Source: a virus. From it: DNA of 31,854 nucleotides. Every line of letters starts with the position of its first letter. The stretch's first letter is position 1. Position numbers and translations under genes: made by a program. The DNA lies in IMG/VR virus record IMGVR_UViG_3300025083_000132, positions 1 through 31,854 of that record. One strand, given 5' to 3'. Shown one piece after another: positions 4,561 through 30,414 of the stretch. The notes beneath the pieces were generated by a model. That model searched no databases. It saw nothing but the letters and a program-made list of their open reading frames with translations, and had not been told where the DNA came from.

Positions 4561-5553
4561 ATGACCAACAACGCAAAGCCGATTGGTTTACAAACAAACA
4601 TGCAAGAGACAGAACAATCTTTTGAAAGTTTTTTGACTCCATCGGAACAACCAGAAAACGAAATAGAAGAAGAGGCAACTGAAGAGTTAGTCGACCAACA
4701 GGAAGTTATCGAAGATGACGAACCTTTTGAAGAAGAACTTGAAGCTGCCGAAGAAGAAGACGAACCTCAAGAAGATCAAGTAGAAGAAGAGGAGTCCGAG
4801 CAACCACAGCTATATACAATTAAAGTAGATGGCGAAGATACACAGGTCACGCTTGAAGAACTCCAAAACGGATACAGTCGCCAAAGAGATTATACGAGAA
4901 AAACTCAAGAGTTAGCTGAACAGCGTAAAGCTATTGAAGCTCAACAAAAAGAGGTTTCTCAAAAAGACGAAATTTATTCACAGTTGTTACCAAAAATGGA
5001 AGCGACTTTGAAGGGCGAGTTAGGAAACGAGCCAGATTGGAACGCACTATACGAAGCTGATCCTATTGCTTATGTCCGTGAAAAAGACGTATGGAATGAG
5101 AAGAAGCAAAAGTTGACTGCTATACAAGAAGAAGCAACTAGACTGCAAGAAGAGTCTGCTGCTAAACAAAGAAAGGAACTCGAAGAGTTCGTTCAGTATG
5201 GCAACCAACAATTACTTCAACTAATTCCTGAATGGCAAGATAATGAAGTGGCATCAAAAGAAAAGATGTCAATTCGTAATTATGGTGTTAATGTTTTAGG
5301 GTATACCCCTCAAGAAATGGACAGCGTTTATGACTACCGAGTTTTACTTGGTTTAAGAAACGCATGGATGCATGACAAAACATTAAAAGCGACTAAAGTG
5401 AAACCAACTGAAAAGAAAGCAGTTGCTCGTACTGCAAGACCTGGCACTTCAAACGTACCAAAGACAACAACTCCTGTGAAGAAAGCTCGTCAAAAATTAG
5501 CTAAGACTGGAAAAGTCCAGGATGCGGCTAAATTATTTGAACAATTAATATAA
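4561..5553 (+). CDS. Capsid scaffolding protein
   Basis: A 330-residue internal assembly protein placed directly before the major capsid gene. Residues 15-90 are extremely acidic (runs of EE and ED), then a conserved-looking segment (YTIKVDGEDTQVTLEEL and YSRQRDYTRKTQEL), a long charged coiled coil (about 110-215), and a basic Lys/Thr/Pro C-terminus that would contact the capsid protein. This acidic-coil-basic layout plus 'YTRKTQEL' is typical of scaffold proteins in SU10-like and marine phages. ATG 4561 is preferred to ATG 4555 because TAAGGA at 4549-4554 sits six bases before it and only touches the other start. Confidence 0.88.
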   Translation: MTNNAKPIGLQTNMQETEQSFESFLTPSEQPENEIEEEATEELVDQQEVIEDDEPFEEELEAAEEEDEPQEDQVEEEESEQPQLYTIKVDGEDTQVTLEELQNGYSRQRDYTRKTQELAEQRKAIEAQQKEVSQKDEIYSQLLPKMEATLKGELGNEPDWNALYEADPIAYVREKDVWNEKKQKLTAIQEEATRLQEESAAKQRKELEEFVQYGNQQLLQLIPEWQDNEVASKEKMSIRNYGVNVLGYTPQEMDSVYDYRVLLGLRNAWMHDKTLKATKVKPTEKKAVARTARPGTSNVPKTTTPVKKARQKLAKTGKVQDAAKLFEQLI

Positions 5554-19167: not shown

Positions 19168-19641
19168 ATGCCACGCGAGACGGAGCGGATAGGTAGGAGT
19201 GGTGAATATTTAGCCTGCTCAGTTCTAGCGAGAGAATCAGACACCGTTACAATAATGCCTCATACATCCCATGCCGATGTGATCTTTGAGTGGAAACATA
19301 AACTATATAGATGCCAAGTTAAAACAGTTACACATATAGAAAAGACAAAAAAGAACTGGCGGTTTGATATTCGTAAAGGCATTACCACCACAGGAAGACA
19401 TTATAAAAAAAATCAAATAGATATAATCGCAATGGTTAATCTTAAATACCAGACTGTATGCTTCAGAGCCTTTTCTGATTGTCAAACAACACAAATCACG
19501 ATAAAGGACGAAATTATGAAATCAATCAATTCTATTGAAAGTTTAAAAGAAGCTATGGAGTCGATTGTTTTGGCGACTGATAGTCGACAAGGCAAAAATG
19601 AGTCGACTTCTGGTGCTGAAAAAACTGCAATAAATGGCTGA
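19168..19641 (+). CDS. PD-(D/E)XK endonuclease
   Basis: A 157-residue protein with the nuclease core spelled out: Glu13 in GRSGEYLA, Asp37 in HADVIFE, and Gln50-x-Lys52 in RCQVKT. This matches the small PD-(D/E)XK family that includes group I intron-type and phage endonucleases (PDDEXK_11-like). The C-terminal 45 residues are helical and then polar. ATG 19168 lies 11 bases after the last ejection gene with no clear Shine-Dalgarno. The last third contains four TCGAC-type motifs that look like integrase arm sites, so its 3' end doubles as part of attP. Possible roles: host DNA degradation, superinfection exclusion, homing or recombination. Confidence 0.8.
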   Translation: MPRETERIGRSGEYLACSVLARESDTVTIMPHTSHADVIFEWKHKLYRCQVKTVTHIEKTKKNWRFDIRKGITTTGRHYKKNQIDIIAMVNLKYQTVCFRAFSDCQTTQITIKDEIMKSINSIESLKEAMESIVLATDSRQGKNESTSGAEKTAING

Positions 19642-19653
19642 TTTCTGCTCTTT

Positions 19654-19691
19654 GACCCCTTCGTCTATCGGTTAGGACACCTGGTTTTCAT
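19654..19691 (+). other. attP: attP core: 5' half of tRNA-Glu(UUC)
   Basis: The 38 bases read as the first half of a tRNA-Glu. There is a 7-base acceptor strand (GACCCCT), TC, a D arm (GTCT, loop, GGAC), A26, the 5' anticodon stem CCTGG and the loop TTTTCAT with anticodon TTC. From 19692 the sequence (TCTTA) no longer pairs with CCTGG (CCAGG expected), so the tRNA resemblance stops at the 3' edge of the anticodon loop. There is no T arm. A half tRNA directly upstream of an integrase gene is the hallmark of a phage attachment core matching a host tRNA gene. Confidence 0.85.
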
Positions 19692-19748
19692 TCTTAAATA
19701 TTATCCATCACACAGTTTCTCGACTCTACATTATTTCCCTAAAAACCC

Positions 19749-19778
19749 TTGTTTTCTTTACAAGATTCGATTTATAAT
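19749..19778 (+). promoter_or_regulatory. Candidate integrase promoter
   Basis: A perfect TATAAT at 19773-19778 with TTGTTT at 19749-19754 (18-base spacer). Transcription would begin near 19785, about 75 bases before the integrase ATG, and the leader would contain three of the TCGAC-type sites, so integrase binding there could repress its own gene. The -35 match is weak. Confidence 0.5.
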
Positions 19779-19859
19779 CTACTGAATAGGTAATTAAAAT
19801 ACACGTCATTTCGACACTAAAGGTCGACTGTATGGCGACTCTGCTTGGAGGTACGAGTT

Positions 19860-20939
19860 ATGGCTAGATATAAAAGAGATACAAAGGTAAACAATTTATT
19901 AATCACAGAAAAAACTTATAGAGTCTTCTATCGCATCAATGGAAGGAAGAGAGAACTAACTCTTGGTACTAGAGACATACCAATCAATGTAGCAAGAAAC
20001 AAAGCACAACAAATACTTGGTGAAGTTGCACAAGGTATTGATCCATTAAATACCAGAGGTGGGGAAACTTTAAATAAAGCGTTTGAATATTACATTGATA
20101 AGTTAATACAAAATAAAAGAAGAGTTGCTATGCCTAACAAGAACGGTAAGCCTGGCGAGTATGTAAGAATGTGGGATAAAGATGTTAAGAATGATTTAGG
20201 TAAAAGAATTCTAACAGATATAAACAGGGGTGATATTACAAGATTACATTTAGAAATATCTAAAAGAGGTTCTTATACTGCTAACAGGGTTATACAGATG
20301 ATATCTGGTTGTTATAACCATGCGATAGCATTATCACTGGTAGAAATAAATCCTTGTAAAATTAAACTAAACAAAGAACTGATTAGTGAGAATGAAATAT
20401 CAGACAAAGAGTTTGCTGAATTACAAAGACAAATAAACATCAAGAGACAAACTGTTCGACCTAACTTTGTTAGCTCTTTAGATTACATAGAACTTTGTAT
20501 GCACTCTGGCGGTAGATGTAAGAGTGAGATAGGCAGTGCCAAATGGTCTGATTTAAAAGATAACAAGATAGTTCTAAGCGAACATAAGACCGACCATGAA
20601 ACTAATGAAGATAGAGTCATCTATCTAAGCAATCAAGCTATGATGGTTATTAATAAGCTAGAGAGAAAGGGAGAATACATCTTAGATGTAGATTACCCTG
20701 TAAAGATGTGGAAACAACTAGCTAAAAAGATTGGTAGACCAGAACTAAGGTTGCATGATCTAAGGCATAACTTTTGTACTATGGCTGGTGAGATTATGGA
20801 ACTACCAGAACTAATGAAACTATCTGGTCATAAGAGTATGTCTGCTGTTTTACGGTATCGTAAAGTAAGAGAGCCTAGAGCAATCAAAGAAATGCAAAAC
20901 GTAGGCGACTATATGACCAAGATAATGATGTCTAATTAA
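19860..20939 (+). CDS. int: Tyrosine integrase
   Basis: A 359-residue site-specific recombinase. An N-terminal arm-binding-like part (NGRKRELTLGTRDIPINVARNKA, typical of the P4-type integrase opening) is followed by a core-binding helical domain and the catalytic domain. The active-site set is visible: Arg219 (GGRCKSEI), Lys243 (EHKTDHE), His299-x-x-Arg302 (LHDLRH), His324 (SGHKS) and Tyr333 (LRYRKV). ATG 19860 is chosen over the in-frame TTG 19845 because GGAGG at 19847-19851 lies eight bases before it. It sits 168 bases after the half-tRNA core. Its 3' end overlaps the convergent gene by four bases. Confidence 0.93.
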   Translation: MARYKRDTKVNNLLITEKTYRVFYRINGRKRELTLGTRDIPINVARNKAQQILGEVAQGIDPLNTRGGETLNKAFEYYIDKLIQNKRRVAMPNKNGKPGEYVRMWDKDVKNDLGKRILTDINRGDITRLHLEISKRGSYTANRVIQMISGCYNHAIALSLVEINPCKIKLNKELISENEISDKEFAELQRQINIKRQTVRPNFVSSLDYIELCMHSGGRCKSEIGSAKWSDLKDNKIVLSEHKTDHETNEDRVIYLSNQAMMVINKLERKGEYILDVDYPVKMWKQLAKKIGRPELRLHDLRHNFCTMAGEIMELPELMKLSGHKSMSAVLRYRKVREPRAIKEMQNVGDYMTKIMMSN

Positions 20940-21723: not shown

Positions 21724-21906
21724 ATGGAAGAAAAAATATTTTTAAATCAAAACGAACTTGCTGAACGATGGGGAATGTCTCCAAGAACACTAGAGAACTG
21801 GCGTTCACATGGCAAAGGACCATCTTATGTAAAGCTAGGCGGTCAAGTCAGATACAAGTTTGAAGAAATCATAAAGCTAGAAGAAACATCACAAGTCGGA
21901 GAGTAG
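21724..21906 (+). CDS. Excisionase/AlpA-like HTH protein
   Basis: A 60-residue DNA-binding protein. NQNELAERWGMSPRTLENWRSHGKGPSYVKLGGQVRY is a MerR-type winged helix-turn-helix (HTH_17/AlpA-like): the recognition helix is at about 18-26, followed by the GPSYVKLGG.VRY wing. Proteins of this size act as recombination directionality factors or small transcription activators. As the first gene of the rightward early operon and a near neighbour of the integrase, it could direct excision and/or switch on the early genes. Confidence 0.82.
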   Translation: MEEKIFLNQNELAERWGMSPRTLENWRSHGKGPSYVKLGGQVRYKFEEIIKLEETSQVGE

Positions 21907-27214: not shown

Positions 27215-27346
27215 ATGAATGGAAAGGGAAGTGACCAACGACCAAGACAAATAGATAAGAAAATATTTGAGGATAATTGGGATAGGATATTTAGTAAGAA
27301 AAAGACCAAAAAAGAGTCTAAAAAAGATAAAAATAAGGATAATTGA
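27215..27346 (+). CDS. 43-residue conserved phage protein (RPxxxxxxFxxNWDxIF)
   Basis: ATG 27215 directly follows the previous stop; GGAG lies about eight bases before it. The peptide opens MNGKGSDQRPRQIDKKIFEDNWDRIF and ends in a Lys-rich tail. The 'GKG..RP......F..NWD.IF' pattern is a widely distributed short phage protein that I recognise from cyano- and pelagiphages, function unknown. It is the last gene of the rightward early operon; its stop lies at the edge of the repeat block. Confidence 0.75.
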   Translation: MNGKGSDQRPRQIDKKIFEDNWDRIFSKKKTKKESKKDKNKDN

Positions 27347-27420
27347 TTGGGTACCCATATACCCAATAGCAGGGTACCCATATACCCAATGATTGACCAT
27401 ACGGGTACCCATATATCCAA
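27346..27420. repeat. Iteron-like repeats, candidate replication origin
   Basis: Three copies of a 17-19 base unit at 27349-27367, 27372-27390 and 27403-27420. The unit is GGGTACCCATATACCCAAT; copy 3 has TATCCA in place of TACCCA. Each contains the palindrome GGGTACCC and two TACCCA-type heptamers, giving six heptamers in a row. Copy 1 also forms an 8-bp inverted repeat (ATTGGGTA/TACCCAAT). Spacings are 23 and 31 bases. GC-rich repeats beside a primase-helicase gene fit an origin recognised by a Rep protein, or an operator for the HTH proteins downstream. Confidence 0.6.
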
Positions 27421-30335: not shown

Positions 30336-30374
30336 GTCATTTACCTCCTAAAGTATTTGTTATGACTCTCACCC

Positions 30375-30397
30375 AAAAAGCCCACATAAGCGGGCTT
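30375..30397 (-). terminator. Rho-independent terminator inside the leftward operon
   Basis: On the minus strand AAGCCC (30397-30392) pairs with GGGCTT (30383-30378), followed by TTTTT. It lies just after the first gene of the array and only about 40 bases before the next, with no clear promoter in between, so it probably acts as an attenuator. Confidence 0.75.
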
Positions 30398-30414
30398 GTT
30401 TGGTTGGGTTGGGG

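Follow-up and report, generated by a model that had tools for sequence, protein, structure and literature searches.

Positions 19654..19691 (plus strand, GACCCCTTCGTCTATCGGTTAGGACACCTGGTTTTCAT) of the window, by which we mean the whole stretch of DNA analysed, one entire IMG/VR virus record of 31,854 bases, are very probably the attP core of a phage that targets the tRNA-Glu(UUC) gene of its host. The core corresponds to positions 1-38 of the tRNA, the 5' part of the gene. A wider reading, which we find plausible but put forward tentatively, is that the window belongs to a phage family nearly all of whose members integrate via the 5' part of a tRNA with one CCWGG-N7-CCWGG geometry, that the target has moved between the D-arm of tRNA-Pro and the anticodon loop of tRNA-Glu by in-register exchange of the core, and that promoters are traded on integration, the host promoter going to int and an essential tRNA coming to depend on phage transcription. 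Attachment sites made of a 5' tRNA half are on record, though uncommon; what is new here is that a whole family uses one, under a single site rule and with a change of target.

The core is identical in 38 of 38 positions to positions 1-38 of intact tRNA-Glu(TTC) genes in three GTDB genomes of streamlined marine alphaproteobacteria, AG-319-E03 (L063), SI047_bin126 (L064) and AG-313-N13 (L065), and the match also includes the T at 19653. Phage and host differ from 19692, where the phage reads TCTTAAAT and the host CCAGGAAA (next host bases CCAGGAAAGAGG). The 3'-most base of the anticodon loop, position 38, is the last one shared. A 35-base pattern of the core was found in only three stretches of a collection of 84,980 species. 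In IMG/VR it occurs in 24 contigs, each of which continues as phage sequence to the left and to the right of it. A chance match of the core to tRNA-Glu is excluded. ARAGORN found no complete tRNA in the window, and Rfam gave no match at the core. The first-pass annotation had read this segment as the 5' part of tRNA-Glu(UUC), with its end exactly at the anticodon loop, and had named the host gene from it; its coordinates are right, and the exact matches in the three genomes bear out both the target and the end point.

The core sits 168 bp upstream of the ATG (19860) of a tyrosine integrase gene and is flanked by CGAC repeats. These repeats look like arm-type integrase sites, and we presume P-arm sites at 19572..19608 (plus strand, CGAC cores at 19574, 19584 and 19603) and P'-arm sites at 19809..19842 (plus strand, CGAC cores at 19812, 19824 and 19836). 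In the L027 group, whose integrase N-terminus has only about 13 of 40 residues identical, tandem CGGAT repeats are found at the places of the CGAC repeats, as would be expected if the N-terminal domain of the integrase reads them. An IHF-like site AATCAGCCATTTA in the P arm (19631..19643, minus strand) matches WATCARNNNNTTR exactly, which is weak evidence by itself since WATCARNNNNTTR occurs 8 times in the window against 6.6 expected; the site GGCTGATT is kept in many relatives. To the right, 15 bp from the core, a conserved element ATCACACAGTTT (19707..19718, plus strand), recognised by the ATCAC spacing described below, has a position like that of IHF site H'. We read an int promoter TTGTTT-18-TATAAT at 19749..19778 (plus strand), kept in relatives and overlapped by an inverted repeat CTTGT-N7-ACAAG. 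This inverted repeat, CTTGT-TTTCTTT-ACAAG (19748-19764), covers the -35 region of the promoter, is likewise kept in relatives and is a possible operator. On the other side of the core, a gene for a PD-(D/E)XK-like protein (19168..19641, plus strand; phrog_5018, E 5e-13; PF11645, E 6e-4, below the curated cut-off) has its stop codon 12 bp before the tRNA core. A palindrome GGTC-TTT-GACC that precedes the tRNA in some relatives was dropped as a candidate element, being not kept (the window reads GCTC).

The tyrosine integrase (19860..20939, plus strand) is intact, co-directional with the tRNA core, and has both an arm-binding and a catalytic domain (PF00589, E 7e-11; PF13356, E 2e-8; phrog_1, E 4e-38; PF22022, below its cut-off). 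Residues R218, R301, H323 and Y332, numbered from the second codon, are invariant in the family alignment. A candidate excisionase of the HTH_17 type is encoded at 21724..21906 (plus strand; PF12728, E 7e-9; PHROG excisionase families, E about 1e-7). The portal and major capsid genes of the window are SU10-like, and isolates resembling the window include Pelagibacter phage HTVC106P and others. HTVC106P has a major capsid protein 44% identical to that of the window but, unlike the window, no annotated integrase. A DNA search with the attP/int region against the phage collection gave no match, and a protein search with the integrase returned only distant integrases.

We infer the crossover position, the half-sites and integration itself from the sequence, and propose the following course. 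The integrase would bind the CGAC arm-type repeats on both sides of the core, as in a lambda-like attP, and strand exchange would take place in the 7-bp anticodon loop TTTTCAT, between CCTGG and CCAGG of the host. At attL, the int end, the host promoter would be followed by a truncated tRNA and then by int. At attR, the far end, an exact and complete tRNA-Glu would stand with phage DNA upstream in place of the host promoter, the restored tRNA landing there because the phage carries the part of the tRNA left of the crossover. The predicted attR is 19600-19691 joined to CCAGGAAAGAGGAGTTCG, and the predicted attL is the host tRNA-Glu promoter, the core and TCTTAAATATTATCC. ARAGORN called a complete tRNA-Glu in this virtual attR and none in attP or attL, with the same outcome for tRNA-Pro, at which most relatives would integrate likewise, using the same integrase geometry on CCTGG-TAGCGCA-CCTGG.

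The promoter of the host tRNA-Glu in G003 is TTGAAA-18-TATAAC, and after integration transcription from it would pass along the truncated tRNA and on into int. The restored tRNA would have the PD-(D/E)XK-like gene directly upstream, and it is possible that read-through from that gene could transcribe it. Upstream of the phage Glu core, the best sigma-70-like match did not exceed that of shuffled sequence (mean best match 7.9 of 12, against 7.9 in shuffled sequence), in a scan that is weak since it does not pick out the host tRNA-Pro promoters either.

The 24 Glu contigs and the Pro contigs of the window's family in IMG/VR are all of the attP form, with an attL or attR in 0 of the 24 Glu contigs and in none of the Pro contigs. 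In 162 genomes of the host order, incomplete MAGs and SAGs, none of about 160 tRNA-Glu and tRNA-Pro sites had a phage flank, and the match to attP DNA ran no more than a few bases past the core at any of 81 tRNA-Glu and about 82 tRNA-Pro loci. The family integrase was not found in these 162 genomes at 1e-15, and 385 genomes of the class gave only generic longer integrases. Some host genomes (e.g. G110) have contigs that break at tRNA-Pro; we considered these breaks as prophage junctions and rejected them, as they showed only host sequence. The prophage junctions at host tRNA-Glu that the first-pass annotation led one to look for were thus not seen in the 162 genomes. Nor was its description of the phage as temperate borne out, since no integrated copy was found in these genomes and no repressor was recognised.

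Both observations would agree with a phage whose attP is real and serves only for rare, unstable integration during the lytic cycle, as in T7-like cyanophages, with no true lysogeny. The failure to find a promoter upstream of the core would fit as well, as the restored tRNA would then need none, and a precedent is described in PMC8776855. We consider this possible, though on the doubtful side: the window encodes a candidate excisionase, dozens of contigs retain attP and integrase, repressors in unknown phages often go unrecognised, and the host genomes searched are incomplete. Integration at the 5' part of a tRNA gene, which we prefer as the mode of the window, is supported by two contigs of an unrelated phage group. 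In brief, contig L168 has head genes, the 5' part of tRNA-Pro (4713-4756) and an integrase, and contig L154 has the same phage arm (99.9% identity over 4,756 bp) followed by an intact tRNA-Pro (200-277). The two are a probable attP/attR pair, with the L154 arm joined to what is probably host DNA; alternatively, L154 may come from a phage variant that carries the complete tRNA gene. In a further contig, L139, an intact tRNA-Pro is accompanied by genes for an endolysin and a glycosyltransferase.

The cores of tRNA-targeting phages typically include the 3' half of the tRNA (PMC10865867), and use of the 5' half is known from archaeal pTN3-like integrases and seldom met in bacteria (PMC8371274), in line with the earlier remark that a 5' core is unusual. 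As predicted for the window, pTN3-like integrases of Thermococcales use the 5' half of a tRNA as attachment site, and the tRNA that they restore is uninterrupted but separated from its own promoter (Cossu 2017 PMC5495485; Badel 2021 PMC8371274). These integrases are suicidal, the gene being split on integration, whereas attP of the window lies upstream of an intact int. The restored tRNA is said to be expressed from the integrase promoter (PMC8371274; PMC5495485); in the window, int would instead land behind the host tRNA promoter. The window works like the pTN3 mode but falls outside the pTN3 group, because attP is 168 bp upstream of int and int is not split.

Mycobacteriophages with 3' cores (PMC10865867) share with the window a tyrosine integrase, a core of about 28-45 bp, arm-type sites (presumed in the window) and a functional tRNA restored at one junction (predicted for the window), but they leave the promoter in place, whereas the window carries the 5' half. 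The Fionnbharth type of tRNA-dependent lysogeny has a short, non-restoring core and a phage-encoded tRNA, whereas the window has a long restoring core and no tRNA gene. Marine phages of a similar kind are the T7-like cyanophages P-SSP7 and S-TIP37 (PMC8776855) and an HTVC019P-like contig (PMC3861242), all with an integrase and an exact partial tRNA as attP; these use tRNA-Leu, in contrast to tRNA-Glu in the window. The two cyanophages integrate without stable lysogeny (PMC8776855).

We found about 60 further contigs of the family in IMG/VR by scans with the integrase, the integrase alignment and both cores. Among the relatives whose integrase reaches an identity of at least 50% and whose upstream sequence is long enough, all except L014 and L017 have the 5' part of a tRNA in the corresponding position. 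Positions 1-38 of tRNA-Glu are used by the clade of the window and by L053/L196 (integrase 65% identical). The remaining relatives carry positions 1-26 of tRNA-Pro, up to the D-stem; this block, TCGGGGAGTAGCGCAGCCTGGTAGCGCA, is given with the single base that precedes the tRNA.

In an ungapped alignment, the CCTGG pentamers of the two core types, which belong to the anticodon stem in Glu and to the D-loop in Pro, share one attP column. Host identity stops seven bases past CCTGG, at the last base of N7, in both types of attP, and ATCAC follows exactly 21 bp past CCTGGT in all 25 Glu-type attPs and in 34 of the Pro type. The host sites read CCTGG-TTTTCAT-CCAGG (Glu) and CCTGG-TAGCGCA-CCTGG (Pro, D-loop to anticodon stem), and both fit CCWGG-N7-CCWGG, with N7 in the anticodon loop of tRNA-Glu and in the D-arm of tRNA-Pro. 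We presume that the pentamers are core-type half-sites and that N7 is the overlap. In the window, the left half-site would be CCTGG at 19680..19684 (plus strand; tRNA-Glu 27-31, anticodon stem), taken from the column shared with Pro CCTGG, and the 7-bp overlap TTTTCAT at 19685..19691 (plus strand; anticodon loop 32-38), placed by the end of the identity. An overlap at CCTGGT was also considered and rejected, since half-sites, not overlaps, should stay constant between two targets.

It should be noted that the two sites explained by the CCWGG rule are also those on which it was built, and that the right half-site on the phage side does not read CCWGG, which counts against it. Of the 3,538 possible pairs of block ends in the two tRNAs, only 4, the observed pair among them, give identical left pentamers together with nearly equal right ones. 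We recovered 23 tRNAs from the incomplete genome G003, and CCWGG-N7-CCWGG is present in Glu and Pro but in none of the others.

The anticodon loop is a classical position for crossover. The claim that the block ends at the anticodon loop is true for the window, but not for the family: the tRNA-Pro block 1-26 ends at the D-stem in the same register, and the block end is therefore probably set by the 7-bp crossover region and not by the anticodon loop as such. The crossover segment predicted by the first-pass annotation would lie within the block, with its boundary best read as the end of a 7-bp overlap in the register common to Glu and Pro. The block is 38 nt long, though an overlap needs only about 7 bp of identity, and exchange could be placed further left, e.g. 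in the D-loop of tRNA-Glu, with identity up to position 38 serving only to restore the gene. We think this improbable, as identity in tRNA-type cores normally stops at the crossover side, and the register and end point common to both tRNA types are best explained by N7 at 19685-19691 as the exchange region. Phages can acquire tRNA fragments by chance capture, but the fixed distance to the integrase gene, the register shared by Glu and Pro cores and the repeats flanking the core leave hardly any chance that the fragment is a leftover of host DNA or a tRNA-fragment decoy, and not an attachment site.

A tRNA-Glu within three mismatches of the core is present in 81 of 162 genomes of the host order (HIMB59 at a guess; the record titles give Alphaproteobacteria and Pelagibacteraceae), and the exact core only in G001-G003; where present, the pattern occurs once per genome. 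The prevailing tRNA-Glu allele of the order has TCAGG..CCTGA, without the CCWGG pattern. The CCWGG rule fits this host range, since the common allele lacks the pattern and only G001-G003 match exactly. The tRNA-Pro core was exact in 26 of the 27 sampled genomes having a match. The earlier suggestion of a SAR11 host does not hold for SAR11 at large: what stands is the exact tRNA-Glu match in 3 of 84,980 genomes, with differences of 1-3 bases in other members of the order. In many hosts, tRNA-Glu and tRNA-Pro are about 8.26 kb apart on the same strand (e.g. G003:C7, 47467 and 55729). The DNA immediately downstream of tRNA-Pro varies between host genomes.

In a tree of the catalytic part of the integrase, the Glu users form one clade, which encloses the Pro contig L011 (listed as L189) and the coreless L014 (listed as L192). 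L011 is a mosaic: only its integrase body (L011 3190-4045) is of the window type, and the sequence to either side of it matches the Pro-type L020 at 99% identity. We rejected the reading that L011 had swapped its core and kept its integrase, in favour of an L020-like phage into which an integrase body of the window type had come. This single contig suggests that integrase bodies are exchangeable over one attP, and it may be a natural recombinant or an assembly artefact. In L014 and L017 (about 2830-2900), the integrase is 96-98% identical to that of the window, and the whole attP core and arm region are missing. The integrase frame of L017 is also broken, and with the core and arm region gone, its integration module looks lost.

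Nearly all tRNA-targeting elements preserve the promoter of the tRNA, and the family of the window would do the opposite. The targets occur once per genome in streamlined marine bacteria, so survival of a lysogen with an essential tRNA under phage control can be tested. Two tRNA types in near-identical attP frames, with a shared rule, would make a natural case of integrase target switching, and the site rule together with the tRNA types narrows the predicted Glu-type host to a few species.

Two intergenic structures elsewhere in the window were also seen. The ATATGGGTACCC repeats at 27341-27417 can fold into a long hairpin and had a chance-level Rfam match to mir-1473. At 30374-30402 there is a GC-rich, terminator-like hairpin, AGCCCACATAAGCGGGCT.
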